Assembly (NCBI GenBank): GCA_964036195.1
Contig: OZ038450.1
Coordinates: forward strand, 24,581,208-24,645,207
DNA from: Sphaerolaimus hirsutus
Taxonomy: Eukaryota > Nematoda > Chromadorea > Monhysterida > Sphaerolaimidae
Length of the DNA stretch: 64,000 nt
Direction of reading: 5' to 3'
In this document: positions 1 to 57,836 of the stretch, piece after piece
How the letters are laid out: each line of letters starts with the position of its first letter
Position numbering within the stretch: position 1 is the first letter of the stretch
Notes under the pieces: model-generated
What the model was told of the DNA's origin: nothing
The model's input: the letters and a program-made list of their open reading frames with translations, nothing else
Databases searched by the model: none
Position numbers and translations under genes: made by a program

Positions 1-221
1 TTATTAGTTTTTCACCTAAAAAATACAAACTTATGTTGCTTATTGCTTATTTTCAGCTAATATTTGGTACTTTATGTACTTATATACCAAATATAGCTTT
101 TTCACCTACTTTCAGTGATTTCACTACCTTTTCTTCATTCTACACCTTGAATAAGCCCACCTATATATTGAAGTCCTGCAACCACCCACCCCCATAAATT
201 TTTAGACATTTGTACAGTTTG

Positions 222-515: not shown

Positions 516-793
516 TTCCCAGCTATCCCCTCCTGCCATTGTCACAGTTAATGTGTTTGCAGTGTATATGGCCAAACCTCCCAAACTGTTTTCTGGTTTT
601 GGGATCATGTTCAGCCTATACCCTATGAGATCAGGGAGGTCTAACATAATGGTCACACCTGTGCACACAGTGCAATCACATGGTACTTTGTTTGTCCCAG
701 TTGGGTTAGCTGCCCAAGTTTTCTCTTAGCAGAATTCACATTCTGGAAAAATGATTTAAGTGATTCTGCACTGTGCCCATTAGCGTTTAATGG

Positions 794-2223: not shown

Positions 2224-2520
2224 CAGGGACGTATCCAGGATTTTTGAGCAGGGGGGGCTGCTTGTTTACGGGGGCCAGCGAGCGGGGGGGGGGGGGGCTC
2301 AGCCCCCCCCCTTAATTTTTTCCCTATATAGGAACAGAAAGGTGTTTTGGCGCTAGCGCCATACCAAGGCGCCACGCCATGGCGCTATTGGCGTTGGCGC
2401 CAACGCCAGGAACCACTTTATATAGATGTAAATATGCATACATATGCAGCGAACGTCGCAAAAATGTGTTCATTTTCAAGGATTTTTGTTTACGGGGGAC
2501 CAATCTGCTAAAAATACAAT
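2224..2520. mobile_element. Truncated hAT-type element at the duplication breakpoint
   Basis: Starts CAGGGACGTATCCAGG after the target GTTTCAGC, as in the intact copy at 12999. Sequence identity to that copy stops at 2520; the right inverted terminus and second target copy are absent and gag-like sequence follows. Confidence 0.85.
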
Positions 2521-4044
2521 ATTTTGGATATGTGCTGGATATGGTTTCTGTTTCTACCATTTCTGGTCCAGCTTCTTCCACATTGACACAATTCACTGTG
2601 GCTTTTCTCTGCTGGCTCTGTGCTGGTTGACCAACTGTCAGCACAGACTTTCTGCCATTGTTTGCTGATTGCTGGCCATTCTGTTGACCATTTGCTCTGA
2701 ATGCTGGAACTTGCCGTCCAGAATTTCCATATCCATTGTCTCCAAACTTCTCTGGGCACACTGCACTGTGTTGCCTATTGGATTTGCAATAGAAACAATT
2801 TCTCGTAAATTGACACTGAGCCATGTAATGCCCTTTCTGCAGGCATCTCATGCATCGCTCTGCCTTTGACAAAATCATTCTCCTTTCTCTGGCAGTTTTG
2901 AACTTTGGACACTTATCATTGAAGTGTAATTGCTGTGTGTCATTACAGAACACACACGGCCTCCCAGGATTCATGAATCCAGCCTGCAGTGCACTCTGAC
3001 CATTCTGGATCACAGACATGCTCAGGACCAGCAGGCTGTGCTGGTCCTAGGATTCTCTGGCCCTCTGAATCGATTCCCATTGCCCTGGAACCGATTATTG
3101 AATTGCTGTGCGCGTGGATTATTCCCGAATCCCTGGCATGATTGCTGAACTGGTGCATCAGTGTGCTGTGCATGCTGTACAGCCTCACTGAGCGCTAGCT
3201 GTTTGCCAAACAGCTTTCTGAACTTCTACACTGTCAAGGCTTCCTCAGTTCCCTGTTCCTTCTGGATTTCCCTGAGAACCTCTGGTGGAACCTTCTGTTG
3301 CGCCTTCTTGAGCATTGCGATTGTGGGTGCATAATTTTCTGCAGTCACACTCAATCCACTGATCATACCGAATGCTGAGCCCTTCAGCAAGCTCCTCAAA
3401 TATGAGAACTTGGAAATGTCCTCCAAATCTGTTCTGTTATGTATATGAGATTCGAACATTTGCCACCATGATCGAAATTTGACAATTTCCCAAGAAAACT
3501 GTTCCACTTCCAGTTTCTGTAATTTGATGCTCTTTGCAGTAGTTGCATTGGTTGAACTGGCTCCTGAAGCAGCTCCCTGAGCTGTTAGAGCCATCTGAGA
3601 AGCCATCTGTTGTATGAATGCTGTATTAACTTCATACATGGTACTTCCGCTCAATTGCTGGATCATATCTTGCAACTCTTCGATGTACACATTCATGGCT
3701 GCAATTCTCTGTGTCACCAAGTCTGACATATTTGCGTATTCATCATATGAATCTTGGTACATCTTTTGTTCTTGTTCCAATTGATCGGGATCGTCAATGT
3801 CCTTGACGATATCTCTCCATGCGTCAAATTGAGTTCTCACTGTATTCATTGCACCCTCCAATTTTGCACCTTCCTGTTTGATAGATGCAATCACTCTTCT
3901 CATTTCTGTTCTCTTCTCATCCTTTGACGCCTCCGCATATACTTCCGGATCATATTTTGCAAATTCTCTTTGCAATCTGCTGTCCACCCTGTGCTTTGCT
4001 GGATCCAGGGTCTTCCTGATATGACCCATTGGTGAAACCACCAT
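2521..4044 (-). pseudogene. BEL/Pao-type retrotransposon gag, broken
   Basis: The N-terminal frame 4044-3226 encodes a coiled-coil-rich region followed by a DUF1759-like stretch (KLEVEQFSWE, FRSWWQMFESHI, KFSYLRSLLKG), characteristic of Pao-type Gag. A second frame, 3019-2521, carries zinc knuckles (CVFCND, CMRCLQKGHYMAQC, CFYCKSNRQHSAVC). The two frames are out of register and separated by about 200 bp. No protease, reverse transcriptase or integrase follows because the sequence switches at 2520. It is a dead fragment. Confidence 0.85.
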
Positions 4045-10582: not shown

Positions 10583-10996
10583 GCCGCTGGTATGTCCCAT
10601 TGGCGAAGTGGCATGAAGCCGCGCGGCTGTCAAACACGTCAATTGACAATGCGGCAATACGAATCGAGAAGCGCAACAATGGAACTGTTGAAAAATGTAT
10701 TGGAAGAGTTAAGCTCAGCTATGGCAAGCACTTTTTGAGAAGTTTTAGCAAAATTTTCACCCAATTTTCATACCATTATTAGTTTTTCACCTAAAAAATA
10801 CAAACTTATGTTGCTTATTGCTTATTTTCAGCTAATATTTGGTACTTTATGTACTTATATACCAAATATAGCTTTTTCACCTACTTTCAGTGATTTCACT
10901 ACCTTTTCTTCATTCTACACCTTGAATAAGCCCACCTATATATTGAAGTCCTGCAACCACCCACCCCCATAAATTTTTAGACATTTGTACAGTTTG

Positions 10997-11290
10997 AAAC
11001 AACGCGGTTCAAAGTAACTTGAACCGCGTTATAATAACTGCAAACGTGTTGCACACAATTCTGAAACGCGCTGATGCATGTGCAGCGCGGTTCAGAATTT
11101 TCTGAAACTGCGCGCCACATGCATCAGCGCGTTTCACAATCGGGCATGAAACGCGCAAGCGCTCGCTAGCGCGGTTCACGACGCATGTGAACCGCGCTGG
11201 GTTCAAGACAGCGCGTTTCACATTTTCATGTGAAACGCGTAGAATGAAACGCGCTGGAACCACAACGCGTTTCACCAATGGACAGCCTGG
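10997..11290. repeat. Cluster of short palindromes, duplicate copy
   Basis: Duplicate of the cluster at 222-515 within the long direct duplication. One of the changes (CGCATAG to CGCGTAG) restores a better palindrome in this copy. Confidence 0.8.
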
Positions 11291-12079
11291 TTCCCAGCTA
11301 TCCCCTCCTGCCATTGTCACAGTTAATGTGTTTGCAGTGTATATGGCCAAACCTCCCAAACTGTTTTCTGGTTTTGGGATCATGTTCAGCCTATACCCTA
11401 TGAGATCAGGGAGGTCTAACATAATGGTCACACCTGTGCACACAGTGCAATCACATGGTACTTTGTTTGTCCCAGTTGGGTTAGCTGCCCAAGTTTTCTC
11501 TTAGCAGAATTCACATTCTGGAAAAATGATTTAAGTGATTCTGCACTGTGCCCATTAGCGTTTAATGGATCAAATCAAATCAAATAGGTTTACTTGTCTC
11601 AGACCTCAAAAGCCAAATGCAAGTAAATATCAATACCATATTGAACACCCATCGACTACCCCTAATTGCAGTCTAAACAGGTGAGTTTTTCGTAGTGCTG
11701 TGAAGATTGTTGTTGAGGGGAGTATAGAGAAAAACACCTAAACAACCTAAAAACATAGTTGCAAGATATGCGGCAGACAACATTGCCAGGTACACCGAGA
11801 AAAAAAAAAACTCTAGCACCCCACGACCCGGGTTTGACTGCTCCAAGAAAAGCGTTGAGCAAACGTAAGCGAAAAATAAAAGTAAATGTAAGTGAAAAGT
11901 AAGATTTCCAGGGATTATCACTACAGTACAAAAAATCCATTTGTTGGTGTTAGATCATTCCAATAGTCTTCACATTTTTGAAGACAGCATTTGAAAGTGT
12001 GTGATTCCCAGTTTCCAATTTGGATATTGCTACAGTTTTGTACAGTTTTGATATTTACAGTTTCCTGGTTTTCCATCAA

Positions 12080-12990
12080 TCAGCGTGCTGGCCGACCGGG
12101 TCTCCCGCTTGTGAACGATAAACCGTCTCTGCGCTCCACCCAATCTGCCAGCAATCTGGTCAATTTGTCCAGGTGTTGCGACACATCAATACACATTTTA
12201 TGGCACACTGCGGCATCAAAAACTGTGCTTGGAATCTGTCTCTCAATGTTATGGGTTGTTTGTCGTGGTATTAATGCTGCCGTCGCCTCTGGTGTGGTAA
12301 ACGTTTTCCCACACCGTCGACTACAGCAGTCTTCACTAATCCACTTTGCCCATGATTCGCGCCAGATCCAGATTTGCACCGTTGGATGTTGACACTCTCC
12401 CAGGTAATGGGACAATGTCATCCAAAATGACCACCCCAGTGTCTCACATAGCGGACAGTTATTCCATTGTCTCGTTTGATTGTGCCTGAAGTGCATTTGT
12501 TGTGTTTTTGGTAGCCAGCCATGTCTCCCAGCAAACCACCCATGTTCAGTCACCTGTAGCGTTTCAGGCAACAGTGGTGTGATTTCCTGTACTACTTGAT
12601 TTTCATGTTGTATACTCCTAGTTGTTTTTGTTTGTGGTTTCAGTCCTTCCTCCCACCTGTAAAGTTTGCATGCGTTTAGAATCTCGTGTTTCCCTAATGT
12701 TTCTGTATTCTCCATATTTACCTCTCTTTTTGCTGTGGTTGCTCTTCCCTCAGGTGAATTTTTCTGTGTTGTCCCCGCTGTTCCCCTTCGAGCACCCCAT
12801 ATTTTTGCTGCAATTTTTGTCATTTCTGAGGATTTGTTTGAGTTTAAAAAGTCATTGTATCTAATGACACTGTATTTGTACCAACACTCCATTGTCCTAA
12901 TGTTCCAGTCCATTCCCAGCAACTTGTTTGAGATGTGTTTCCCTACATTCCCCACCTGACGGTAGAGTCCCATCTGTGAAGCCGTCATTT
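12080..12990 (-). pseudogene. LINE C-terminal domain
   Basis: Separated from the reverse transcriptase by the hAT insertion. The insertion plus one target copy is 469 bp, so its removal brings both frames into register. Contains CPLCETLGWSFWMTLSHYLG (C-x2-C-x12-H-x4-C) and ends INPT-free at a stop near 12080. The relative at 55406-56464 shows the uninterrupted order. Confidence 0.88.
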
Positions 12991-12998
12991 GTTTCAGC

Positions 12999-13459
12999 CA
13001 GGGACGTATCCAGGATTTTTGAGCAGGGGGGGCTGCTTGTTTACGGGGGCCAGCGAGCGGGGGGGGGGGGGGCTCAGCCCCCCCCCTAAATTTTTTCCCT
13101 ATATAGGAACAGAAAGGTGTTTTGGCGCTAGCGCCATACCAAGGCGCCACGCCATGGCGCTATTGGCGTTGGCGCCAACGCCAGGAACCACTTTATATAG
13201 ATGTAAATATGCATACATATGCAGCGAACGTTGCAAAAATGTGTTCATTTTCAAGGATATTTGTTTACGGGGGACCAATCCGCTAAAAATACAATGTATG
13301 GGGAAGAAATTGCGCACTTGCGCGCAAAATTTTTAAGAAATTTCAAAAAATGTATAGGAAAAACTTGCATTTTCTGGTACTTTTTAGGTCTCACCCCGGA
13401 AGGAGGGGGGGGGGGGGGGGGCTGCAGCCCCCCCCCGCCCCCCCCTGGATACGGCCCTG
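12999..13459. mobile_element. hAT-type non-autonomous element inside the LINE
   Basis: Termini CAGGGACGTATCCAGG and CCTGGATACGGCCCTG, flanked by an exact 8-bp duplication GTTTCAGC (12991-12998, 13460-13467). 461 bp, with long G and C homopolymers near both ends. Eight-base duplications and CA(G)GG ends point to the hAT superfamily. No transposase. Confidence 0.9.
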
Positions 13460-13467
13460 GTTTCAGC

Positions 13468-15449
13468 GTAGTTTTTGACACTCCAGTTATTTCTATGCCG
13501 TACATTACCATACTGGCAACGTATGCCCCCCATAGCATGTTCAGCACCCAGATTTGCCTTCTGCTGTGTTTTGTAACCTCTTTTGTGAGAAATCTGCCTT
13601 TTATCAGCTTATCTAGGTATCCACTCTTTTGTTTTTGGAATGGATCATGTCCACTGCATAGTACAATACCTAGATACTTGGTCTCATCACATTCTCTAAT
13701 TGTTTGTTTTTTCCCATCCTCCCCTATGCCCAGGTGCCATTCTTTGTTCTTGTCCGCTTTCCTTCTGAAGTGCATAATCATGCTTTTTTGCTCACTGATC
13801 GCAATCCCCCATTCATGACTCCAATCTGTGAATATGTTTATTATCTTCTGCAGTGCGATGTCATTGTTCGCCATGAGTACAACATCATCCACAAAGAACC
13901 CGGCTGGTATTTGTTTGCCTCCAAGCCTTGCTCCCAGTCCACTTCTCTCTAGTTTTGTTCTCAGGTCTGCCATATACAGCACATATAGTGTTGGACTTAG
14001 GCAGCAGCCCTGTCGTACTCCCAATGGGTATTCCAGTTCCTCCGTGTGGACTTCCTTGTACTGCAGGTAACATTTTTCATCCGTGTAGGTGCTTTTTATC
14101 GCGCTGCAAAGCTTTTCTCCATATCCGTAGTCTCTTAGCTTTATCCAAGGGTGTTGTCGGTCCACTCTATCGAAGGCTTTCACTGCATCCACGAAGCACG
14201 TTGACAGTTTGTTTGTTTCTGTCAGACACCCCTGCAGTATAAAATGGTTATCTGTGGTTCTTCGGTTTGCTCTGAATCCTGCCTGCATATCACCAAAGGT
14301 GTTATTACATTCGAAGGCATCCATCAGCCATTTGTTCAGGATGGAGCAGTACAGCTTAAGTATGTTGCACTGTATCCCCACTGTTCTGTAGTTATTCACA
14401 TCCGATTTTGCGCCCTTTTCATGCAACAGAACAAGTTTGCATGTTTTTGCCACATCAGGTATTTTTTCTCGGCCACTGAACCACCTGTTCATTTGATTTG
14501 TCAGGGCAATGATGAGTTTCAGTCCAGGCATCCTTATCATCTCATGTGATATCCCCGTTGTTCCTGCAGACTTGCCCAACTTGAGTCGCCTACATGCCGC
14601 TCCAGTATCAACTGTAGATATTTCTCCGTCCATTTTTCCCGCTAGGCTTTTGTCAATTATCCCTATCATCCCCCTGTCTGTTCGGAAAGTCGCTTTTGCA
14701 GGATTGGGTTTTTGTATCCTCTTCCAGAAGTCAATAAGGACTTGCTTTAGTTCATTGTTGTCTTTGCATGGTCTGTTTCCATTTTTGAGCATTGGATATT
14801 TCACATCTGCTTCCCGGAGCTTCTTTGCCAGTTTGTACAGGTTAGTGTTCTCCAGACCGTAGCGTAGTTCATTTTCCATTATCTGGTCAAGTCTTTCTTC
14901 ATGAGCTGACACTTCCTGCTGTCTCACATCCTGCAGTCCCTTTCTCCGGTGTTCACAGTATTCTGACAAACCGAACCTGCCTTCGTGAAGCGCCCTTCTC
15001 TTCTGCCGGAGAATGCGTTTGATTTCCCGTATATTCTTACTATAATTTGTTTCTCGCTTCTTAACCTCTTTGATCCCAAACCAGCTTTTCACCCATTGCT
15101 GTAAAAATTCAAGCAGGGTGTCATAGTTGGTTGGGGGATCATTCAGGTCAAGAACATTTTCAGTCTCATGCAGAAACTTTGTAGACTTTTCTTTACCCCT
15201 GATGGACCACTCTTGTTTCTGGGTCATTGCATCTCTGTGGTCCACTCCATTTGACACAAGTGATATGTCAATTTCTAGCCCACTGTGGTCGGATGTCAGA
15301 GGACTGTTCCCGTGCCCTAGGTTCTTCATTGTGGCTTTTGTTATTTCAGCCTGGTTGTCCACGAGACAATGATCTATTCTCGTTTTTGTAAGTCCAGATT
15401 CAAATGTCCACCACTGCCCCATCGTGTCATCCAACACACCCATATCCAT
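13468..15449 (-). pseudogene. LINE reverse transcriptase region
   Basis: Begins with the end of the endonuclease (TKTRIDHCLV, TSDHSGLEI). Reverse transcriptase motifs follow in order: NNYRTVGIQ, CFVDAVKAFDRVDRQHPW, GVRQGCCLSP and the catalytic GFFVDDVVLMANN, then TKYLGIVL. After 13468 the open frame runs into the hAT element, which adds a Gly/Pro-rich tail that is not part of the protein. Confidence 0.92.
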
Positions 15450-15470
15450 TGCCGGTATCCAGCCTCTTAC

Positions 15471-21879: not shown

Positions 21880-24800
21880 CTGCGATTATAGGTACCATAT
21901 TTTGCTGTATATAATTTCGTCAACTGTTTACTCGCCGTTCTATCGGTCCCCGTTCCGGATACCTAGTTGCTTTTACGCTTTACCTGAGTAAAACTACAGG
22001 TTTTTACATTTACTTACCTTTTACGCAGTGTAAAGTTTAAAAATATTTACTTTACGTTTTCTGTAAATAAATAAATTCCATGGGTACATAAAAATAAATA
22101 CATTAAATTTATGTTTAGTGACTGAAAAGTTTTGGACATTTAACAACTCTACATTTTACATGACTTTTGATACTTTGCATGCCATTTGACAGTTGAAAAG
22201 GCATTTTACAGAGTACACAGCAAAAAATTGGTGTGTGGATGCGCGGTGAAGCGTCGGGAAGTGTCTTCACGCCAACACTTCCCGAACGCTTCACCAAGCT
22301 GCCAGCGCTTCTCAATATGGCGCTTCCACGCAAATGTATACGCGGGGGAAGCATGTGGAAGCGCCAGCGCCGTGAAGTGTCTTCCACATGTTTGGATGCG
22401 CGTGAAGCGCGTGGTGAAGCTAGGTGAAGCGTGTGGAAGACACTCACCCAGAATCTCGTGATGTTGATGGAAGCGTGCGGAAGCGTGTGGAAGCGCGCCG
22501 CTTCACGCGCATCCAGCCCGCTTTCCACACGCATCACGGATCCATTTTTTGCTGTGGTATTTGTTATGGGTTTTTGACACCAGAGTTGTTAAAAGTACTG
22601 AACTTTCAAATGTTTCAAAGTAAACATAAATGAAAGTACCGTATTACCTCGAAATACCCCCATGGGGGTTTATTATTTCGCCAGCAAAATTTGAGGGGGG
22701 GTTAATTCGAGGGGGGGTTTATTCGAGGGGGGTCTTATTATTCCGTCAGAAATTTTCGTAAGGGTCGTAGTAAATAGTAGGCATTTGCATGCCCAAAACA
22801 GTTAAATGTGTCCAAACAAAATATATTTGGACATAAAAACGTAGATTAGCTACACAAACATGTCCATGTGTAGCTGCAATACAAATAAACGGTAATATAC
22901 ATCATGTACATTGCATACATGACGTATTTATTATGTACATGACGTACGTCATTCCGAAGGGGGGGTATTTCGAGGGGGGGGGGTTTATTATTTCCCCAGC
23001 CGATTTTGAGGGGGGGTTAATTCGAGGGGGGGGGTTAATTCAAGGGGGGGATAATTCGAGGTAATACGGTATTTATTTTTTACTCACCGCCTCACCCCTG
23101 TGTACAGAGAACGTTAACGGTTAGTATTTTTTTTCTTTTACTCGCATGTGTAAACACCAGTAAAATACTTATTTCACCGGAAAACGTAGAAGTGAGTATT
23201 TTTGATAAATTTTTGCCCGATTTTTCACTTAAAATCACTTAAAATCGGAGGTGCCGTTCTATCGGAAACTGCCATTCTATTGATTCCATTTATAAAAAAA
23301 GTGATAAAACCTGCCGTTCTATTCGAGGTGCCCTTCCATCGGCGGCATGCCATTCTATTATAACAAATAAGGTAATCCACGTTAAATTCAAATATAACTC
23401 AAGTCTCAACCAGAGTTGTTAAAATACCGGTATTTTTGGAAAGTGTAAGTGTAAGTGTAAATACACTTTCCAAATTTTGAGTATGGATACCAAAAGTGTA
23501 AGGTATTTTAAAAATACCTAGGAAAGTGTAAAAAAGTGTAAGTGTAAAAAGTTTTTATAGAAAGAGCTCTCACTGTTAAGCATTAGAATACACCACTGTT
23601 TTCACCTTTATATCAATATATTTGTCATTTTTATGCATCATTTCACATTTTACTGCCTTTTATGAAACATTTCAGACTGTAGCAAATACTGTAGTGGTAT
23701 GAAGTTCACAAATAATGGCACTTTTTTGGTGTTAATATTTACTGATTAAGCAATGCGATACACACTGCTTAAATGCAAGATTGGACATGCAGCAAATGTC
23801 AATGCAAAAGCCAGTTGACTTTGTGTCCAGCTAGTGAATTTCCATTGATCTTGTCCTTTTTCAAAAGTATGATGAAACTGTAGAATACCTGAGTATTGAT
23901 CAAAGGTTGGAGATCAAAGGCTAGTTTGTACATTTGCCATATTTTCTACATTCAATGCATGACTGCATGTGTGCACTGTGCAGTTATTTTTTGTACATGA
24001 CCCTATTTAATGCTTTCTCAAAAGCATAAAACAGGGCAATCTGAAAGAAAAAAATACACTTTCTGTACCCGGGTATTTTGCTCAGGAAAGTGTAAAAAAA
24101 GTGTATGGGTATTTTATGAAAGTGTAAGTGTAAGTGTAAATATAAATACCCATTTACCCGGGTATTTCGGGTAAGTGTAAATACACTTTCGCAACTCTGG
24201 TCCCAAACCCTGTAAAATGTCATGTGTAATGTAAAAGACCCTGTAAAATGTCACCTGTCATGTAAAAGACGCTGTAAAATGTCATATGTCATGTAAAAGA
24301 CCCAGTAAAGTGTCATGGGTATCCTAATCTTATTTTGTCATACCAAATCTTATTTTTTGTATCCAAATGTTACTTTTTTACAAAAGATTTGGATACAACA
24401 GCATATATTTGGGTATGGGTACACATGACACATTACAGGGTATTATGTCAAAAAGTGAGATTTGGATACACATGACACTCTACAGGGTCTAGTACAGGGT
24501 CTGGGAGTGGCACCCGATCACAAACCGAATCGGTGCCGGATTCGCAAATGGCTTCGCCCTGTATCCAATCCTGATTCTGCACGGTGACCTCTTCATCGTC
24601 GGCGGGGTAAACGTAAGCTCGTTTTTTGCCGCACCACACCTGCGAGTGAAATTAGGGGTTTTGTTGGAAGTTTTTATGGGTACTGTATTTGATTGAATAA
24701 TGGCCCATGGGGTATTATTTTTCGGCGGACTTTTTTGAGGGGGCTATAAGAGGGGAAATATTCAAGGAGGAGTTATTTTTTGTAAATATTTTCAAGCGTG

Positions 24801-27800
24801 TTTCTATCAACTCATTACACAAAAAATGCTTTATGAACGTAATAAAGTGCATTTTTGTTCAAATTGATCATATTCCATAAAGGGGGAATAAATATTTTTT
24901 CCTTCTTCTTCTTCTCAGGGGGGAATTATGCAAGGGCGGAACTATTCAGGGGGGAATTATTCAAGCAAACACGGTATGTTGAATGTGCTGATTGAAAAGT
25001 AAAATGCAGGAAACGCAGTTTTAAACTTAATCAAATTTTTAGCTTTGGAATGGGAAATTAGGCTTTAGCTTTGTCTACCAAGGAGTATGAAAAAAATTGT
25101 CAGCAAAGTTACATATTAGTGCAACAATACCATGCTTGAATTTGATACACTGCACGAATCCTATGCTATTATAAGAAAGTTGAGAAAAAAATAGTGCCAT
25201 GTTTCCAAATAAGCTAATGCACCATCATAATGATTAATGGCATATTTACTTATGGCACCAATGAAAAAATGGGCTTTTAGAACAAAATCTAAAATAATTT
25301 TATAGCCTTGGTGACCCGCAAATTGAAGCAAAATTAAAAATTTCACCTCAAAAACAGTGCCAGGAGTGCCGACCCAGCGCCAAAATCTTATTACAGACGA
25401 TGTTGCCAATGAAAATCCAGATAATTTTTGTACCGCCTGTTCACCTGCCCAACCGTCGAATAAAACGCCCAGGTAGAATTCATCCCCTGAAAAACAATAC
25501 AATAATGTTACATTACTTTCTTAGAACTTTTTATTCAGAGCCTAAAAGTGGTCACAAACTAGAACTGAAAAGTTTGCAATGCAATGTTCCTGGTGAGTTG
25601 AAAAACTCGAATGTACTGATGAGTGACAATATTTACACTGATGGGAAATATCGCCAAGAACAACAAAAATACCGCATTTTCTCGAAATACCACCAGGGGG
25701 TTTATTTTTAGAAATTTTGAGAAGGAGGGGTATTTCGAGGCTGGTTTCCTCAGTTCAAAAACACCTGGGGGTATTTCGAGGGTGGCGGTAAATTCAAGGG
25801 GGGTATTTCGAGGAAATACGGTATGTAATTGACATGGTGTCTGATTCGCCAAAATCCAACAATAATGTGTTGTTAAAATAACAACACTTACCAGTTTATA
25901 GCCGAATTTCCTCAAATCTGTTAGAAACATATTTGAGTTTGCCAGAATGAATAATTTCAGAGCTCCGCCTACACTAGTTTACGGGCTTTCCATTCCGGTG
26001 AACTCAAATGTATAAAGAATAATTCCCCAGTTTTAGAAATTCAGCAATAACGGAATAAAAAAACGAGAACCCCCCACCCCCCAAAGAAAAGAAGAAATAA
26101 AAAAACACCCCCCAATTAAACCCACCCGGAGTCGCTTTGCACCCAGTCAACCTGTGGCCTAACCTCCCACTAGTAACATGAAATTCCCTCCTTTTTATTT
26201 CCACATCAAATTCTTGCGGGTCGGGTACAGATAAATCGCAGCACCTTTCATCGGTGATAAAACCGCGCACGCATTCGACTAGATACTGTATATGCAGTCC
26301 CGGAACATGTGAAAGACTGTGTAAAATGTCAAATGTCATGTAAAATGTGAAATGTCATGTAAAATGCACTTTCAAGTGTCCAATGTTAAGCAAAGTGTCA
26401 AAAGTCATGTAAAATGCCTTGTAAAATCTCAGAAATTATGTAAAGTGTTAAGAGTCAAAATGCACTGTAAAATGGCAACTGGGTAGATTTTTTACAATTA
26501 CCGTATTACCTCGAATTATCCCCCCCCTTGAATTAACCCCCCCCTCGAATTAACCCCCCCTCAAAATGGGCTGGGGAAATAATAAACCCCCCCCTCGAAA
26601 TACCCCCCCCCCTTCGGAATGATGTACGTCATGTACATAATAAATACGTCATGTACGCAATGTACATGATGTATATTACTGTTAATTTGCATTGCAGCTA
26701 CACATAGAGTAGTTTGTGTAGCTATCTACGTTTTTATGTCCAAATATATCCTGTTTGGAAACATTTATTACCTATTTTGGGTACGCAAATGCCTACTATT
26801 TACTACGATCCTTACGAAAATTTCTGACGAAATAATAAACCCCCCCCCTCGAATAAACCCCCCCCTCGAATTAACCCCCCCTCAAATTTTGCTGGCGAAA
26901 TAATAAACCCCCATGGGGGTATTTCGAGGTAATACGGTAATTTTACATGACTTTAGACACTTTGCATGACACATGACATTTTACACGGTCATTTACAGGG
27001 TCTGGGACTGGTACCTGTAGGCAGCAGTGAGCCGTTCCAGGGGGGATTGTAGAGGCTGGGATTAGAATTGGGGTGTCTGCAATTTTAGGGGAGGGAATGT
27101 GATTTTTATGGTTACCGTATAAACTTGAATAAACCCGCTTCCGACGGAAGACCCACAAATGTGAGGGAGAAATTATCCCCCCGGAAATTAATGTGAGCAC
27201 AGAAATTATAAATGTAGCGTCACGAGATGACACCCCCCCCCCCAATCAAACCTCCTCAACGTTTTCTGGTTATCTAATAAACCAGCCGAGGGTATTTCCA
27301 CAATATGGGGTGGGGATCACTATTCAGGTATTTACAGTGCTGGGTAAAAGCGATCAATGCTAAAGCATTTTGAAGCATTTACAAATGAAATGAACATGTA
27401 AACTACAGTATACTCGGCAGACACAATACTCTACAAACAGATAGGAGTTATGTCTTCGGCTGGCAGACGGCCAGCCGAGAACTTATGGAAGGCGTGATGG
27501 CGAGAGATGATGATGAGGACGAAAGTGATCACGTCATGATTAGGGTGTCAAAAAAAATTTTTTACGGAAAATGGAAACGGAAAAAAATTTTCAGCGGCCG
27601 GAAAACGGAAATGGAAAAATCAAAATTTGCACGGAAATGGAAAAGCTGGCTGAAATTTTGCTGGAAAACGGATAAAATTTGCTTAAATTTTGCTGTAAGT
27701 GGAAAAAATTTGCAGTAATTTTGCTGGAAACTGAAAAAATTTTACATCATTGACAATCTGCATGAATTTTTACTAGTTTGGCTGATCAGAAAACAGAAAG

Positions 27801-30800
27801 ATGAGCCAGAAAAAGGTAAAATGAGGCGGAAAAATGGAAAATTGAGGCAAAAAATGGAAAAAAAGGTGGAAAAACTGGAAATTGAGGCAGAAAACAGAAA
27901 GAGGCAGAAAAACTGAAAGTTTAGCCGGAAAACGGAAAATGAGCCGGAAAAACGGAAACAGAAAAAAAGTTGCCAGAAACGGAATGGAAAATGGAGAAAA
28001 AAATTCAGCAGCCGGAAAACAGAAAAAATTTGCCTGCGGAAAACGGAAACGGAAAACGGAAAATGGAAATTTGACACCCTAGTCATGATGGAGTGTTTCC
28101 TCCGGGAAAATGTATGACGTAATGTCATCCGAGTATACACAAAACGAACTAGGACAAGCCTTGAAGTTGACAACGATATTGTCGATAAACACAAATTCCT
28201 TCCGGTCGCCGGTGAACCCATCTGCAACCAGCATAATCTGCGTGTCTACTTGCCATGCAATTTTGGTCCAATTATGTACGATTGCTTTGTCTTAAAATTG
28301 AATTTGAAGGGATGGATTCCGTTCGGTTCATAGTTGATTTTTTCATCCTACCTTTTCATGCATTATCAACCATACATGCCGTATATCCTTGAATACGCCC
28401 CGTTAAATGACTCCACAGTAAAACAATTCTGATGAAAAAATAACTCCCCTGGCCCTGGGGACTTAATCGAGGATATAGGTAAAGTAAATACCGCATTACC
28501 TCGAAATACCCCCAGGGGGTTTATTATTTCGCCAGCAAAATTTGAGGGGGGATAATTCGAGGTGGGGTTTATTTGAGGGGGGGTCTATTATTTCGCCAGA
28601 AATTTTCGGAAATTCCCCATACGCAGACGTAGAAAAATCAAACAATTACATAGATGTATATTTGTTTATAGGCATATATAACTGTATATGCACAAAAACC
28701 CTTCCCTAACGTCACTTAATCATCAGTTTTGACGTGTGTTCTGCATTGTACAGATCACAAACTGCGGTATCTGTCATGTACGTTCACGTTACACTCAATT
28801 TTAGGGGGGGGGGGGGGGGGTATTTCGAGGGGGGGTTTATTGGTTCCTCAGCCGAAATTTAGAGGGGGGGGGGGTATTTCGAGGGGGGGGGGTTAATTCG
28901 AGGTAATACGGTACATGCCAAACAACCCTACCGAACATACTGTTTACCGAGAAAAACTCATTCCAGTCAACTCGAATGTATTCAAAACTGGTCAACCGAC
29001 TGGTTCAAGATTTATAAGTTGACTAAATTTTCCATTAGTGAACAAGTGTATCCAACGACGAATAAATACACACACAAAAACAGCCCCCCCCCCCAAAAAA
29101 AAAAACGCACCTCAAACGCCTCACCAGGGGGCAAAACTAAATGCGCGGGGCCTGGGTTCTGTTTTTTTTCAATGTCAACTAGTTGACACGCGAGTTGCGG
29201 GTGCAACTCGGGGTGGTTGAAAAAAGCTCCGCGGATGCACGCGCGAAGTTTCGCACCCGGCGTCAGCCAGTGACTGCGGGTGGGTACTTTTGGGTATTCG
29301 TGGGTACTTTGAACCTACACTAGTGCTGTGAAAACGCCTCACTCACTGAAAAGACACAGTAACTGGAGATGCGGCGCAGATAATTGGACAAGAAATCAAA
29401 ATTGCTTCAGATTTTGGCCCGTGTCCTTGCCCGCCCAGAAAGAAAAACTTGTGATCTGTAAAAATAAACAATTTGAAGTAAAAACTGGGAAAAAGTTTCA
29501 ACTTTTTCAATAAAAAATCACCAAGTGCAAAAAACTCACGCGGCAAAATGCCAGTGCCAAACCAGTATTCAAAATCGATCAATCTGCCCAGTTTTTGACC
29601 GTCCAAAATGAGAAAGTTCAATCGATCCACTTTTGGGTTGGCATTCTTCCAACAACAAGGCAAATCCACATCACAATCTAAGTCTCCGGGGTAAAAAGTG
29701 CCCAAACCAAAAAGTTTATCATATACTGTAAAAAAATTGTGTAAAATTTTAGATGAAAGTTTTTCAGTGGGGACAGTGACTTTTTATTTGTGAAGGGTTA
29801 TTATTTGTAAAATGACAATGAGTTATGTGAAATAAACTCGGCAGACATGAAAGGAATCAGTGATTCGGCCCTTACGTACCAATTTTAAATTTCGTTAAAA
29901 TTGTTAAGTTAATTTTGAATTTGAATGAATGCATTCCAATCGATTCATGGTAAATCTTATTCAATCCGACGTTTTATGCGAGAACATGATAAACTGAACA
30001 CGCATATTGTCATATGAAAGCAGATAACAAGGTATTTTATTGTAACAGCCCGGACAAATTCCAACAAAAAGGTACGTATGTGTGCGTGCGATTGAACAAG
30101 GGAAGAACGACCCTGTACACTGTACACCACTAGCTAAATCTGGATCGTTTTGAAAATCTAAAAATTGCTCTGAATAACATAAAATGCTCACTATGTTCGT
30201 AATAATAAGAAATTATCGTAAATTTATCAAGTGTAGATCTTAAATTCAAATTTCGACGGTGACGTTCAGTTATCTAATTGAAAAATTTGTTGATGGTCAT
30301 CCCTACGCATGAAATACGAGTGTCAATAACAATGAAATTGGGTTAGAATGGCACTTGTACAAAAATTCGTTAGACCATTGACTCGCATAATGTCTGCCGA
30401 GTATAACAGTTAAATTTTAAGAGTCGAGTTAAAAGTTAAAAGTTGAGTAAAAGGTTAAAAGGTGAGTTAAAAGTTGAGTTAAGAGTTGCGAGTTAAGAGA
30501 CAAGTGTAAAATGATGGTAAAATAAATAAATAAATACAAATGTGAGATTAGTATCGATACCGCTGTTCGTTGGCATGGTGCCAATGTTGAATGCACGACA
30601 TTTAAAAATAACGTATCCAAAAAAATTATCGCTAAAGAAAAAAATCGCGGAACAGTGTTGCAAAATGGCGTTCACTATACACTTTTGTTTGATTTAGACG
30701 GAAGCATTTTTTTAATAGGCCCTCATTTTCGGTTCCGAAATTGCAACGCAACTGGTGAATAGTGATGTAAAGGCACCGGGGCACCGGTGCCCCGGTGCTG

Positions 30801-33800
30801 GGCACTGAAGGGCACCAGCACCGGTGCTGGTGCGGTGCCATTGCAATCTTCAGGGGTGCCATGCCGGTGCCGGTGCCATTTTTTTCAGAATAGCACCGGT
30901 GCCGGTGCGGTGCGGTGCCATTTTTTTGCCGGTGCCAAAGGTGCTAGCACCAGGGCCAAAGTAAAAGGCACCAGAAAGGCACCGGCCAAGGCTTCATGTG
31001 CTGCGCAATTTTGTCCATAGTATGTGCTTATTCATATTTCAAAAAAACAGCGATATATTTACCCAACCGCTTTTGCCTATTTTGTAAACCTCCCATCAAA
31101 TAAATATACCTACTGTGAAATCCATTATACCCGATACGTGATCTGATGAGCGAATCTAAAATTTTGTTGAATTTTAAATCATTTTCATATTTTTTATTTC
31201 TCTTACTTTTTTGTTCAAAATTTGTTGTCAGTTTATGACAGAGATAGTTCCATTCTCTGTACAGCAACGACTCCGATCAGTAGACAATAGTGGCTATGGA
31301 CATTGTAGTGAATGAAATATTTTATCTTTCATTTGTAATCATTGTAATTGCTTCATAAAAGTGATTGCCACATCATTCTGATCATTTTAAGTGCTCAACC
31401 ATCATAATCGGTTGAAAATTCATGGAAATATGCACTTCCAAATGTGAGACCACTGAGAAACTGCCCGATATTTACTACAGAAATTCCAGCCCGGTGCGGT
31501 GCCTTTCGGTGCTAGCACCGGCAACCCGCCGGTGCCCTTCGGTGCCGGTGCCATTTTTTCCAAAAGGCACCGGTGCCGGTGCGGTGCGGTGCCATTTTCT
31601 GGCCGGTGCCCCAGGGTGCCAGGTGCCCTTTTCATGCGTTGGCAAAGGTGCCGGTGCGGTGCGGTGCCATTTTTCCCGGTGCCTTTAACATCACTACTGG
31701 TGAATCGTTGCCTTCCGCTCAAATTCCTCCGAGTCAAGAACAACGCTCTCAAGATACGAATTCATTTTTTCTTTTCTTTTTTAATTTACATTTTTCCCAT
31801 TTGTCATTTAAATCAACTTTTAACTCACCTTTTAACTTTTTCTCAACTCTTAACTCAACTTTTAACTCGACTTTTAACCTTTCACTCAACTCTTAACATT
31901 TAACTCAACTTTTAAATCAGCTCTTAAATTTCAACTTTTCTCTTAAACTTTCACTTTACTCTTAACTCGCCATTTGTAATTTTACTCAACTCTTATGTTT
32001 TAACTCTTAACTTGTCCACTTGCAAAATGAGAAGTGAGAAGTGAAATGGCAAATGCGAAGTGAAATGAGAAGTGAGAAGTGAATTGAGAAGGCCCTGACC
32101 CAAGATAGGGTGGGTCTGAAAAAAGGCACATTTTTCGATCTTTTTCGCTGTCGCTCCGAGCGTGCAAACTTTGCAGCGCTATAACTCTACCATTTCATGA
32201 CCGATTTTGATCGTTTAACCCTTAAAATGATGCAGAACACCTGCAGATTCCATTTTTGTAGTCGTATTAGTGTTGTCTAAATTCCGTATGCCAATTTGAC
32301 CCGGTTTTTCAACACTAAAAATAAATTTTTCTGAACATGCTATCAAATACTTTAGACGACGAGAACTCATATAAAACAAAAATGAGTTCAATATATCTTT
32401 CCAATCAAAAGTTATAGCGTGTCAAACTTTCCCTCCCATCCACATAAATACCGTAAATCCTCGAATAAGTCCCCGGGGGAGTTATTTTTTCCTCAGAATT
32501 TTTTGAGGGGGGACTTATTCGAGGGGGGGAGTTATTTCTTCATCGGAATATTGAATAAAATACTTGATCAGTATATCATCTGAATGGGGTTAAGTAGGCT
32601 GCATAAACGTGTGAGCCAGAATAGAAATCCCGTAATTCATGCAATAAAATCAATGCTAGTGTGCATAAACTGCAAAATAATGAATGCTTTTAATGATCAT
32701 ATACATACATACGTTTTTTATACGTGGACTTTGTTCCCACCCACAAAAGAGGGGGGAGTTATTCGAGGGGGGGAGTTATTTTTTCCTCAGTCAGTTTACA
32801 GGGGGGAGTTATTCGAGGGGGGAGTTATTCGAGGGGGGACTTATTCGAGGATTTACGGTAACCACATAAAGAACAAAGCAAAGAACAAAGCAAAGAACTT
32901 CAAAACTCCATATCTCGACCATTTCTCAGCCGATTTTCACCAACAAATACTTAAAATGATCAGAATAACATGGGAATATCGTTTTTATTATCAGTTTATC
33001 TGTATGCACTTTCATTATGGTAATTTCATTCAAGAGTTCTGATTGTTTTCTTGTACGGTAGAACTTATAAAATACACAGATAATTCACAGACAAAAATTA
33101 TATCTCCATGTCATTTTGATCATTTTAAGTGTTCATTGGTGAAAATCGGCTGAGAAATGGTCAAGATATGGAGTTTTGAATTTGAATGCCTTGTTCTTTA
33201 CCTGGTTATTTATGTGGATGGGAGGGAATGTTTGACACGCTAAAACTTTTGATTGGAAAAAGCTATTGAAGTCATTTTTGTTTTATATGAGTTCTCGTCG
33301 TCTAAAGTATAAATATGATAGCATCTTCAAAAACAAAATTTACTCAAAATTTGGCATTCAGAAATTGGGTCAAATCGATATGACCGCAATTGTACTTCAT
33401 CCAAAATGACCTCAAAAATGGAATCTCCAAAGATTTTAGTTCATTTTAGAAGTTAAATTAACAAAATGGGGCGTGAAATAACGGAGTTATTGACATTCAA
33501 AGTTTGCGTGTTCAAGGCGACACCCGAAAAAAATCGAAAAATGTGCCATTCTTCAGACCCACCCTATCTCGGGTCAGGGGGGTCGTAGTAAATCGAATTC
33601 GATTTTCAATACCGCCCGACCTGAAACATCATTATGTTAAATTTTCGACAAATTTTGCCAAGTGGTTGCAGAGTTAAAACCATGCAAACTTTGGCGGACC
33701 CCCCACACCCTTAAAATGCTACCCCGAAAATCCCCTATGCCCCCCCCCCCCGCTGTGCACAGGGGATCCAATGAAACATGCAAGCGCATGTCACATTTTG

Positions 33801-36800
33801 TATCATTACACACGCCCATGCGCCCATGAAACACTTTGTATCATTACACACGCCCATGAAACAAGGGAATCCCGATCGGTAACCTTCCCGATCGGTAAGC
33901 TCTCGATCGGTAAGCCAAAGTATGGCGATCGGTAAGCCAAAGTGTGTCGATGGGTAAGCCGCAGGCAATTTTTATTTTTGACTCGATCGGTAAGCCACAG
34001 TGTATCGATTGTTAACCCGACTATCTTGATTGGTAAGCCGCGAGCGTACATATGTGTAATACATGGAATAATTACTGAGGTAAATATGTACAAACAATAC
34101 ATGAGGCAATTATGACTGGGCGCCTTTCATCAAATGTACAAACTGCGAAGACGCTCACTTCTGATAAAAAGGATTGGCTTGTTTTGTGTTGACAGGCCAT
34201 GGATGATATGCTCATCGGTTATTTTACCAAAAGTTGCAGCAGCCATAGCTGCTACCATAGCCAGTGGGGGGGGGGGTAAATAGATTAAATAGATTCAACA
34301 AAAATATGTAACAAATGTGAAACACAATAAAAATGATGCAACGAGCTATTGAATAACGTGCGTGTGGACACATCGCCGAAAAGTCTACTATCTTTCTGCC
34401 GCAACTAATTATTACGTATGTATTTTTATGCGTGTTGTATGTTTGTATTGCGGCTTACCGATCGAGACATTGGCTTTACAATTGATATACCATGGGTTAC
34501 CAATCGAGATACTTTGTTAGACTTTGTGTGGCTTACCCATCGACACACTTTGGCTTACCGATGGACATACTTTGGCTTACCGATCGAGAGCTTACCGATC
34601 GGGAAGGTTACCGATCGCTATACTCTCCATGAAACGCGCCGGTTTGATCATGAAACACACACACGCGCGGTGTCATAGCAAACCAATATTAACCATTATT
34701 CAACATTGTATTTTGTCTTAGATTTTCAACAGTGGTGAGGTTTGAAATGTACTAACATCATAGATATTTTGATTAACAAATTAACCATATTTCATACTGT
34801 ATTTGCGGTAACAAAGTTATTTGTGGTAACATAATGAATAATTTTAATATTACTAATTGGTCAAACAATGTCTAAACATTTTTTATACAGATTATCTATT
34901 GTAAATATTTTTGGTTGGATATTTGCTGTGCTACAGTTGATTGAGTCACTCCGATGAATTAATTGCTTATTTTGACACAATTAACACATCTAACAATGTT
35001 TACTGTGCATGTTTAACTATCATTTGGCATGCATGTAAATAGGTAATATAAAGCGCTGAAAATGGTTGATTATACTTACAAAATAAATAAGTAAATGCGA
35101 TGCGCGCACATACATTGCTATGACACCGCGCGCGTGTGTGTTTCATGAGCAAACCAGCGTGTTTCATGGGCGCATGGGCGGCGTGTTTCATGGGCGCATG
35201 GGCGTGTGTAATGATACAAAGTGTTTCATGGGCACGTGTGTGTGTGTAATGATACAAAATGTTTCATGCACTTGCATGTTTTGTGTAGCACTCTCGCTGT
35301 GCACAACGCCCAGAGTGTTACGCAGCTTTACGCGCCTCCGGTCAGTATGTTTGGTTGCAAAACCTTTGCAAAAATTTCACAAATGAAGTGACACTGACAG
35401 TAATGAAATGTACACTAGATTTGAACTGTTTGAATGTTGTGCCTTGGTGCACTTACTGAAATTCCGTTGCATGCACAGTTTTCTCCATTGAATTAGGTGC
35501 ATGCTGATTAGTTCTCCATGGTATAAAGTTGCCAAAATGGTGAAACATTACCAGCAATGGGAAATGCAGTGTGAGTGCATTTACACATTCCACATTTCAC
35601 ATATTTTACCAGTGGCCAGCATTCCTCCGATACTTGTAAGAACACTGCCCATCACTGGAGCAAATCTGTTCAATCAAGTGACTTTATGGCACTACTTACA
35701 AGGTTCAGTTGTAGCACTGTCAGAGGTTGTGTTTGCTGATGGTGTCTTGGTTGTAACTATGGTTTCAGTTTTTGGTGTGGTTGTGGTTGTGCTTGTAGTT
35801 GTGGTTGTGGTCATTAGCTAGCAATAATCAATTTTTTAGTACTTAAATTGAGAATAAAAAAATGTGGAATGATAAACCTTCCGCATTTGCAATTCATCTA
35901 TTCCACATGAGCCTTCCCATTTCCCAAAGTTTTCACAGATGAAAATGATCTGCATAAAAAAAATAAAACATGAATAAAACACAGACCAGTGCTTTTTCAA
36001 AACACTATTTGCTTGAAAAGGAAATATAATAGAGATAATTTAGAAAACCAGCTTTATTTGCAACACAGTTGACTTTGCCAGTTCTCCACAATTTACTTTT
36101 ATTGTATGGTCTTTTACACTTTCCAATGTACCAAGGACAATCCGCCCCAAATCTGCATGGTTTGGTTTGCTATGTTTCCGGTTACTCTGATTCCTGATGA
36201 AGAAAAAGTCTATTTCATGTGCCTGCCTTCAAGAAACATCACCTCATCACAGAGTTGCAAAAACGCATTTATGGTTACCTAAATCTATTTGGGTATTTAT
36301 CCTTACATTTACATTTATGGTTTAAAAAAATGCCATTACATTTTATTACGTTTTCCTGACCGAAATACATGGGTACTGGAGAAAACGTAAAAATATTATG
36401 TTTGTAATTCATAAAAGTTGAAACACTCTATATAACAATTGATTTTTGAGCCAATAGATTGTCAAAACTATACAGCGAGAATGATGTCTAACTATGTTCA
36501 GATGTAAATTAGACACAAAGAGTGGTAAAAAGTGGAAATGTCTCTTCCAACCACCACAAACAATGTGTTCAATTCAATTGAAAATCACTGATTCCAGTGA
36601 CCTTTTGTGTTTTTGGGTGGGAAATTGTAAAAATTGGGTTTTTGGATAGTCATTGCCGCCATAAAGCATTCCGTCCCTGACTTTTAGTGAAGTGGAATAG
36701 TGCCAGCATAAGGTTATAAGATAAAGCTAATACATTGTCAGTGATGTGTCACAACTGTTGAAGTATGTGGTACATTTTTAGTACAGCTTATATCACAGCT

Positions 36801-39800
36801 AGGAAGTACAGCTTATTGCGAAATAGCGTGAACAAATGGATGTTTTTTTACACACAAAATGTCTCAAAACCAATGAAAACAACCACCAATGGTAATAGAT
36901 ATGTGAAATTGTGCATATGCTTGCAAAAATTGCAAAATACCAAGCACATAGGTAAGTTCCAAAAAGTTGGCTGATGTTAAAAAAATGGTTTCGACCAACA
37001 CCCATGTTTAAAACACACACATTTTTTCATAAAACAATTAAAAAACATTGACCATCCCTAGACAATACAATGGATGTTTGTAATAAAAGAAACTAACTCA
37101 AAGAATTTACCCTGCGAACTTCCACACAATACCCTCAATCTCTGATACTGTGTAACTTGGAAGAACTGAAATGTGATTTTTGTGATAGCAGTGATGCCAC
37201 CAGGCAGATTGAGATCTACAGAAGCTGATCCACCAGGATAGAGGTAACAAGCCAAATATTGGGGGCTTGTAGTAGCTGAAGGAGTATTTGACAGTCTGTA
37301 TTTACACCATATAGCTAGGGTTCAAATGGGATCCCGATCCCGATCCCAATGCCAAATCCATAGTTGTTAAAATGTATTTACGTTTACTCAAAAAGTATGT
37401 ATACTCGAGTACTGAGTAAATACACTTACGTATACTTTGAAAAAAGTTCCTGTACTCGCATTTCCATATACTTTTTTATATACTCGAGTACAGAAAACAT
37501 ATTTCAGATAGGTTTTTTAGGCTTTTTCCAGGCATAGATGGGAAAAATGTAGAAAAAAAGTGTCAAATAGAGGAAAAATGTCAAGAATATCTGAAGATAG
37601 ACAAATAACACATGAACTAGTGAATTTGAAGGTTTAAATGGCGAAAAAGTTAAATTAGAAATTTTCAGTGAAACCTGAGACAAAAATTACTAAAAAATAC
37701 TTACGTTAACGTTTTCTCTGGGAAAAAGTATTTTACTCATGTTTACTCATGAGTAAAAGTTTTAACAACTCTGGCCGAATCCCAATTTTTTTTTGGATTT
37801 TGCAGTCCTGATCAGGGTTAGCATTCCAAAAATCGCTGGGAGATTTATATTTAAAAAATATAATTAAATATAAAAAATCTCTTAAGTTTTCTCCAGTTTT
37901 TTCCAGGAAGATTTAATTATATATTTTCGTGAGAAAAAAATATAATTAAATCTCTCATTTTTATTTATTTTTATTTTCTCAGCATTTTTTCAGAGAGAAT
38001 TAATTATATTTTATTGTTTGAGAGATTTTCTGAGATTATATGTAATTATATATTTTTTTGAAAATCACCCATTTCTTGGAACGCGGATCCCAGTATCGAA
38101 ACCCCCAGGTTCCGATCCCTATCCCGAAATCTCAAAAAAACGAATCTTGATCCGGATCCCAATCCTGAAAAGTCAATCCCATTTGAACCCTACATATAGC
38201 CCATATGTCGTGAACAGGGTTGGTTTTTTTAACATAATACATTTGCATACAAATTGTGATCAATAAAATAAAATAACACCATGTTACAAAAAAAATTACA
38301 AAAAGTAAAATTTGTAAAAAGAAATTTTACAAAAAATCTGAATCATGCATGCAAAACCAGTAAAAAATTATCATTAAGTGTCAAGTGTCAAGACAAATGT
38401 ACAGTAAAGTGCCAATTGTCATGCAAAATGTCAAGTGTAATGTCAAATGTCAAGCAAAGTGACAATTGTCATGACAAATGTCAGCAAAGTGGCCATTGTC
38501 ATGACAAATGTCACGCAAAGTGTAAATTGTTTATCCAAATCTTATGTTTTTGTATCCAAAGTTTATGTTTTGTATCTAAATTTTATTTTGTTTATATCCA
38601 AATGTCCACATAAGATTTGGATCCAAAACAAGACAAAAGATAAACCGAATATTTTCAAGAACAACTCACATGGACCAAAGGAAATGCCAGTCGAACGGTT
38701 GGCTAAACCTTTCGGTATTTTTTGTCTCCATTTTTGCAAACCCCAAGGTACACCATTTTTTGCAGGATTCACTTTCCAGCCATCACAAAAGTGATCAAAA
38801 TTGCATGACAGATCTGGGGAGAATTGAGTAGTTATGCGTGTCTCATGATACTATGTATATCAATCTGTACTACCGTATTTACTACCGTTTACTAGCGTTT
38901 ACTACTGTACTACCGTTTATAGCACCCCCCCGTGCATAACACCCGGGGTGTTATATAGTTTTATAGCACCCCGGGGGTGCTATAAAAGGTTTCAAAAAAT
39001 GGCTCGAATTGAATGGTTTAAATATTGTGTGTGGCGCCATTCATTGTAATTCCGGCGCGCACGCACATTTTTTTCCGTTGAATTAGCTGCACGCGGGAAC
39101 CAAAAAAATACGTAAAGACGTTTGTATTTAGAAAATGAAAAAACACGGAATTTCTATGCACTTATTTTGCTGTTTTTTGCTGTTTGAAAATTTGTCCATG
39201 TATAGCACCCCCATTGACCTACACCCGGGTGTTATACAAGTTTTAAAAAAGTTTGCTGAAAATTGCTCCTATCTTGTATAACCCCAGGGTGTTATAAACG
39301 TAGAAATACGGTAGTGCTTGCACCCTGTTTAGCACCAGCAATGTGGGGCACTGGTAGCTGCTCACCGTGTACATCATCGTGTGCCCACAGTATGCTGCCA
39401 CAAGGTAAAAATACCTAAGTAGATTTAAGTTTTAATAATGTTCATATTTTATTTTATTACATTCATGATTATTTGATGTGATAAAATTCCAAAACAATTT
39501 ATTTGCCTCTTCTCACTTGAGTTTTTCCCCTCTTGTATGAAGCACATTTCCCCAATTCAATTTGCTATTATTCCTCAAAAGGTGCTGCAATATATTCAAA
39601 TTATTGGTTTTGCCAACCCTAGTGCTGAGACTGATGACAGTGCAGCCGTGTCCCGTTCCAAGGATGTTTATGTTTGGCTGCACATTTGGTTCTCATCAAA
39701 ATGGGTTGTGCAGTGTGCTTGATATGATGCCTGTGGCTAGGGTGTCAAAAAAAAATTTTTACGGAAAATGGAAAACGGAAAGGTAAATTTTTTTCACTTT

Positions 39801-57761: not shown

Positions 57762-57836
57762 ACCATAACCCATCTGAATAACGAACCAAAAATTATACAG
57801 TTTTTCAGCATAATGTTTCGTTTTTACTATGGAATA

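Follow-up and report, generated by a model that had tools for sequence, protein, structure and literature searches.

In a 64,000-nucleotide stretch of the genome of the nematode Sphaerolaimus hirsutus (hereafter the window; coordinates refer to it unless prefixed C1, for contig C1), two introns of one minus-strand gene, gene B, start at the splice site itself with the same transposon end. The element behind this end is of the miniature inverted-repeat transposable element type, approximately 190 bp long, and forms a nearly perfect palindrome with a 3-bp CWG target site duplication (TSD). Judged from the DNA sequence, it is very probably an introner family, that is, a palindromic non-autonomous DNA transposon that creates spliceosomal introns on landing in exons. 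We also lean, with some reserve, towards a broader reading. In it, introns born from transposons would number in the thousands in this animal genome, and a large part of them would be constitutive GT-TG introns with a 3' border determined by the base of the RNA hairpin and the CWG copy instead of an AG; the spliceosome would accept a TG that the hairpin presents.

The first-pass annotation of the window had proposed a genome search for the terminus as a check. The 13-mer CCCAGACCCTGTA occurs 10,742 times (5414 + 5328) in the 348-Mb genome against 21 times (13 + 8) for its reversed control. Copies and their flanks were taken from the first listed sites of contig C1 rather than from every listed site, with 20 extra sites chosen for CAGGTGCCASTCCCAGACC and 4 chosen for CTGGTGCCASTCCCAGACC. 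The 78 paired copies comprise 58 unselected copies, which are the first sites of one contig and no random genome sample, 18 selected for CAG and 2 in the window. Two types of terminus were seen, C(A/T)G|GTGCCA(C/G)TCCC and C(A/T)G|GGGGCA(C/G)TCCC, and GT lies at one end in 46 of the 58 unselected copies. The flanking triplets are identical in 27 of these 58, where shuffling gave a mean of 14.5 and a maximum of 26 (10,000 shuffles), and comparing triplets 3, 6, 9 and 12 bases further out left 2, 3, 1 and 0 matches. Both triplets are CWG and concordant in 26 copies (15 CTG/CTG and 11 CAG/CAG) and CWG but discordant in 6.

A consensus built from 43 oriented copies, each 150-200 bp in size, has a length of 189 nt and folds into a single hairpin of 93 pairs or nearly so, with a minimum free energy of -165 kcal/mol; the unpaired bases are the outer four at each end (GTGC versus CCCC) and a small loop. 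Median divergence from the consensus is 9.8% for the 43 copies, and the median fold z-score of 68 copies is -13 relative to single-base shuffles that did not keep dinucleotides. Since 26 of the first 100 exact termini lie in inverted pairs no more than 700 bp apart, the genome should contain, very roughly, 20,000 elements. The strings CAGGTGCCASTCCCAGACC and CTGGTGCCASTCCCAGACC occur 1604 and 1353 times. In a single length class, 339 intact copies carry CAG at each end and 211 carry CTG at each end. The corresponding controls gave no match for any of these four counts. Read from the GT end, the 46 unselected copies with one GT have a 3' triplet ending in AG in 12 cases, in TG in 23 and otherwise in 11. 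The first-pass annotation did not foresee the comparable numbers at CTG targets, for which the border would be TG.

The reading of these copies as introns rests first on genes that are restored when the element and one TSD copy are removed. Seven such junctions were assembled, two in DDX47, two in OSCP1 and one each in a TPT transporter, a DNA primase and a leucine-rich repeat (LRR) gene. Protein alignments span six junctions in four genes, and the seventh lies in an open LRR frame; family similarity reaches both splice borders, and the terminal inverted repeats (TIRs) of the palindromic 43-copy consensus, together with the TSD, are those of an introner of DNA-transposon type. In DDX47 (L079), 81 exonic residues align without a gap to human DDX47 (PDB 3ber, 1.6e-34) across two introners. 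For OSCP1 (C1:3,591,600-3,593,450, minus strand), the alignment to Oscp1 runs over the L064 junction (3.4e-19), and the chain of L064 and L089, in which an ordinary intron between the two introners was joined by hand, places 86 residues on 86 profile positions across both (7e-41). The TPT transporter (L021, 1.3e-15) and DNA_primase_lrg (L051, 1.6e-12, with a PDB alignment that is ungapped there) are likewise aligned over the junction; L052, a near copy of L051, was left out of the count. In the LRR gene (L047) the frame is open over the junction, near residue 40, and LRR_6 matches two stretches (2.6e-12, the best at 73-95), though no LRR match above the cut-off has been shown to cross the junction. 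Retention of the element would introduce a stop codon in seven of seven cases.

In the homology-checked cases exon sequence directly adjoins each copy of the TSD, and the intron is therefore made up of the element over its whole length. This contiguity makes it hardly credible that the element merely inserted beside the splice sites of pre-existing introns, even though the family is also found in non-coding flanks (40 of the 58 unselected copies have no coding-like flanks). The proposal of the first-pass annotation, in which a transposon end supplies the GT and a duplicated target the AG, agrees with the copies sampled in the genome, which consist of a GT end, a hairpin of about 190 bp and a duplicated CAG; the evidence for this architecture lies in the 339 intact copies of one length class, the OSCP1 junction and the LRR frame. 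Joined open reading frames (ORFs) from GT-first strands matched Pfam families in 3 of 10 and 1 of 10 cases in two sets. In a third, the OSCP1 chain matched, L097 gave only matches below the cut-off (0.07 and above) and eight gave none. These ORFs were picked by eye from those listed (one list held 100 ORFs), and the hit rates are no estimates. By-eye readings of L057 as SMYD-like, L072 as peptidase-S9-like and L033 as kinase-like yielded no match and were not counted. In three pairs of loci, L066/L067, L049/L050 and L051/L052, the same introner insertion is present in similar gene segments, and these shared insertions may predate the duplications.

The orientation of the copies provides a second line of evidence. 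A codon score was trained on 609 codons of DDX47, L047, L021 and L051, for which it is circular, and was run on each strand of 76 copies, of which 58 were unselected and 18 chosen for CAG. The threshold was set at the 99th percentile of the score at random positions, and 24 of the 76 copies passed it. Among the unselected copies with coding-like flanks, 15 of 18 have the GT end first on the called strand (p = 0.0075). For two of the three exceptions, L052 and the second L079 copy, homology contradicts the called strand, and the third, L038, is ambiguous (8.2 versus 7.5), which gives 17 of 18 after correction. Of the CAG-selected copies, six passed the score and four of these are GT-AG. As a control, 20 joined ORFs picked by length from strands without a GT-first end gave no Pfam match (0 of 20). 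This dependence on orientation favours splicing over programmed or somatic precise excision of the DNA, as for the internal eliminated sequences of ciliates. Exact removal of the element with one TSD copy would fit a transposase-type excision, for which an AG is unnecessary, but such a process gives no reason why the upstream end, as the coding strand reads, should be GT (15 of 18 by score and 17 of 18 once homology is considered) or why the control set should be empty, and the assembly keeps the copies inside conserved genes. We therefore regard DNA excision as very unlikely.

The TSD is CAG in L047 and L064, which gives GT...AG. The other five of the seven junctions have CTG as their 3' triplet: both L079 copies (one with CTG and one with CCG as the other triplet), L089 (CTG), L021 (CTG) and L051 (CGG with CTG). 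In L089 and the two L079 copies, moving the borders within the local repeat never yields GT-AG, the last 19 bases lack an AG, and no in-frame AG alternative was seen in the sequence. The CTG triplet, combined with exact restoration of the protein, therefore points to GT...TG introns. At CTG targets, too, the proteins require removal of exactly the element with one TSD copy.

The DDX47 gene (L078, L093 and L079; C1:3,426,950-3,433,150, minus strand) was mapped with exons located by means of a human sequence. The mapped part, which stops short of the extreme N and C termini, has eight exons and gives one open frame of 378 aa. Of its seven introns, two are introners with GT...TG borders; the remaining five are GT-AG in four cases and GC-AG in one, and removal of the last (ATAG|GCACGT...CACAG|CC) restores IIATPGRL. 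A 377-aa query, one residue short at an ordinary intron, was used for the genome search, the search for relatives and the tree. Other matches in the genome reach at most 60% identity, so no further DDX47 was found besides the gene that carries the two introners of CTG type. Among the 120 protein matches listed, the best whole-query identity is 78%, and a higher-scoring entry has 70% over 70%; in the tree the sequence is animal-like and sits on a long branch. An alignment with 32 relatives has no gap within 8 residues of either introner junction.

These data bear on two explanations that would avoid a TG border. One is that only CAG-target copies are true GT-AG introns, the genic CTG copies being unspliced or mis-spliced defects, assembly errors or pseudogenes. 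It draws on the excess of intact CAG over CTG copies (339 versus 211) and on human introns, for which the cited part of one study describes no sole TG 3' site (PMC2374985). It is difficult to reconcile with DDX47, a single-copy gene in which two copies are of the CTG type while the frame is otherwise open for 378 aa through 8 exons, or with OSCP1, which carries one copy of each type. Median divergence is 8.3% for 10 CTG copies and 9.5% for 15 CAG copies, which argues against fresh, unpurged insertions, and copies on the coding strand mostly have the GT end first. On balance we judge this explanation unlikely.

The other, which we consider distinctly unlikely, is that CTG-type introns use a nearby canonical AG, either GGGAG|TGCCCCCTG (+9 nt) or TTTTACAG|GGTCTGGGACTGCCCCCTG (+19 nt). 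A GGGAG does occur near the 3' end of some CTG copies (L021, L051, L082, L049 and L050) but is missing from OSCP1 L089 and from the two copies in DDX47. Among copies ending in CTG, 5 of 14 have an AG at the GGGA(G/C)TG place, compared with 10 of 18 among those ending in CAG; with no excess in the CTG copies, these do not depend on it. Use of the +9 site would add three residues where 0 of 32 DDX47 relatives show a gap. The TTTTACAG site lies 19 nt upstream of the 3' end in the consensus; as an acceptor it shifts the frame, and does so with donors at 0, +6 or +18. An AG inside the 3' terminus was accordingly rejected as the general acceptor of CTG copies, being absent in several, not enriched in the CTG class and at odds with the ungapped DDX47 alignment.

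Several observations weigh against the interpretation of the family as introners with CAG and CTG borders. GT is present at both ends in 4 of the 58 unselected copies and at neither in 8, and 31 of the 58 have no exact TSD. Two near-identical CAG-selected loci, L066 and L067, score higher on the GG-first strand, and the strand of L038 is ambiguous. The 40 unselected copies without coding-like flanks imply that many copies need not be introns. The autonomous partner of the family could not be linked to it. Splicing, above all at the TG border, is inferred from sequence and homology; in the human data cited, TG is an alternative to a nearby AG and never the sole 3' site (PMC2374985), and a 93-bp hairpin should hinder use of the branch point.

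Taking these points together, we still favour the introner interpretation, and a mechanism can be proposed for it. One end of the element reads GTGCCA where the other terminal repeat still has GGGGCA, and that end therefore carries the GT donor. Insertion at a CAG gives exon-CAG|GTGCCA...TGCCCC-CAG|exon, in which, by sequence and homology, the reading frame is restored exactly and the element would be spliced out. Insertion at a CTG gives ...CTG|GTGCCA...TGCCCC-CTG|exon, presumably a GT...TG intron. The transcript would fold into a hairpin of about 93 bp, burying the internal AGs (the TTTTACAG sites) and bringing both borders side by side. U1 would read the GT of the element, the TTTTACAG 19 nt upstream could serve as the AG for the first step, and exon ligation, the second step, would use whichever triplet, CAG or CTG, is accessible at the base of the hairpin. 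Since human TG sites have an AG within 28 nt and one lies 19 nt upstream here, such a two-step scheme may apply.

In the window itself, both donor borders on the minus strand are as the first-pass annotation described them. The junction CTACAG|GTACCAGTCCCAGACCCTG opens intron 1 (donor G, 27014), and GATCGG|GTGCCACTCCCAGACCCTG opens intron 2 (donor G, 24513). The 11-mer CCCAGACCCTG, with at most one mismatch, occurs three times in the window (twice exactly) against 0.38 expected, and 2 of 100 shuffles reach three. The annotation had also seen intron 1 end in an inverted GGGACT terminus, and this is GGGACTGCATATACAG at 26301-26286. Its suggestion that TACAG was duplicated stands as regards the duplication but not the length; five bases were rejected because the family TSD is CWG, and the longer TACAG match is taken to be CAG with two further bases that agree by chance.

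Exon 12 of gene B (27015..27076) has an open frame and the acceptor TTGCAG|ACACC, and ends in CTACAG, the last three bases of which (27017-27015) form the 5' copy of the CAG TSD. Intron 1 (26286..27014) has the family architecture and would be introner copy 1, running from GTACCAGTCCCAGACCCTG to CCGGGACTGCATATA plus CAG, with the GT donor from the element terminus and the AG from the 3' TSD copy (26286..26288). It is 729 nt long because a second palindromic repeat, ACCGTATTACCTCGAAATACCCCC, is nested within it at 26496..26943 (repeat families D5, D10-D12 and D15; no strand assigned). Exon 13 (26126..26285) joins exon 12 in phase 0 (...HCCLQ|YLVECVRG...), its 3' end (CCGG|GTGGG) being placed tentatively by eye. 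Exon 15 (24514..24639, VWCGKKRAYVYPADDEEVTVQNQDWIQGEAICESGTDSVCDR), with the acceptor CTCGCAG, ends in GATCGG and is followed by introner copy 2 (24197..24513; GTGCCACTCCCAGACCCTG to CAGGGTTTGGGACCAG). The donor side of this copy is confirmed. Its inverted 3' terminus, TTTGGGACCAGAG (24207-24195), is damaged, lacks the usual TGCCCC and merges into another repeat, and the acceptor and following exon of intron 2 were not found there. Apart from the nested repeat, all these features are on the minus strand. No Pfam family is matched by exon 15 or by exons 12 and 13 joined together, so the support for these exons comes from their open frames and splice signals. A Pfam comparison of two whole frames on the minus strand of 24000-38998 was likewise empty, and a WAP domain lies further upstream on the gene B strand (Pfam, 7.2e-13).

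Other repeats were noted in the window. The abundant palindromic repeat ACCGTATTACCTCGAAATACCCCC also occurs at 22634-23074 and 57833-58279, among other places, and between gene B exons, at 27564-28100, CCGTTTTCC units (reading GGAAAAC on the opposite strand) form a low-complexity tract. Positions 1-3000 and 10776-13700 hold repeats 10,775 bp apart with 99-100% identity, which would be a recent large duplication or two copies of a long interspersed nuclear element. A long ORF resembling reverse transcriptase, recognized by eye, is on the minus strand at 13254-15470.

By its TSD, the nearest transposon type appears to be NuwaI, a group of the PIF/Harbinger-like PHIS elements for which a 5'-CWG-3' TSD and termini usually starting with GGG are described in the part of the source used here (PMC4482050). 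The CWG duplication is shared with our family (CTG/CTG in 15, CAG/CAG in 11 and discordant in 6 of 58 copies). GGG begins only one of its TIRs, GGGGCA, while the donor end is GTGCCA, and the family is therefore described as NuwaI-like rather than as a member of NuwaI. The PHIS transposase family PF13359 has at least 163 matches in the genome, with scores for 150 of 306 candidates, and many of the matches are near-identical in score. One family of about 100 or more copies, for example at C1:24535477-24536109, spans 633 bp for 147 profile positions. The surplus of 192 nt contains an in-frame TGA and has the length of the element plus TSD, as if an intron lay inside. The exact terminus CCCAGACCCTGTA is absent from the PF13359 copies near C1 2.16-2.19 Mb, and we do not claim an intron link.

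The origin of new introns is a long-standing question. A recognizable element, its target site, its donor end and the CAG/CTG series offer a stepwise view of intron birth. If the CTG class is spliced exactly, it would break the rule, derived from human introns, that TG is only an alternative 3' site. It would then also supply matched intact copies by the hundred (339 with CAG and 211 with CTG in a single length class, not all genic) on which to ask how a hairpin could substitute for a 3' AG signal. Introners of DNA-transposon type were reportedly described by Huff et al. in 2016, and non-canonical introns of Fritillaria borealis reportedly by Henriet in 2019. A later introner survey is said to have appeared in PNAS in 2025; hence we make no claim that the introners of this species are unreported.

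In the portion of the survey by Gozashti et al. (2022) considered here (PMC9860276), introners, which are considered rare in animals, are reported from only two animal groups, and a family has between 5 and more than 2,000 introner copies in a genome. Like the DNA-transposon introners described there, our family consists of short elements that are non-autonomous, end at the intron borders and take one splice site from the TSD. Its own features, against that description, are the CWG TSD, the hairpin formed by the whole element, the two types of 3' border and an estimated copy number of about 20,000, in or out of genes. The Chrysochromulina introner of the same survey takes one splice site from the element and the other from a 4-bp TSD, and has no TIRs. 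PIF/Harbinger elements are among the transposon remains in recently gained fungal introns (PMC8476143), a case of the same wider group of DNA transposons occurring in new introns. As far as that account extends, the fungal remains are degenerate and of several classes, whereas here a single abundant family has ends that coincide with the borders.

Non-canonical borders have parallels as well. Excerpts on Fritillaria borealis give AG/AC and AG/AT as its commonest non-canonical introns and 5% of introns as canonical (PMC13326754). It is an animal with mass non-canonical introns, as ours would be, and both have a repeated border triplet (YAY there, CWG here). In our case the small number of ordinary introns examined have GT-AG or GC-AG borders, and GT-TG would be confined to the introner class. 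Amoebophrya introners, in the sections cited (PMC7789003), share hairpin-forming inverted repeats, direct border repeats of 3-5 nt and non-canonical sites. They have no family-specific inverted repeat and very variable borders, while our family has one TIR, a GT donor and CAG or CTG at the 3' border. In Micromonas, 34 introns with TG or CG acceptors are listed in the portion cited and belong to a non-introner class (PMC3879977). Human U2 introns offer the closest likeness in border, GT...TG with a nearby AG, which is within 28 nt there and represented by TTTTACAG, 19 nt upstream in the consensus, here. The human TG sites are, in the account cited, alternative sites, whereas in our CTG class TG would be the sole in-frame site (PMC2374985).

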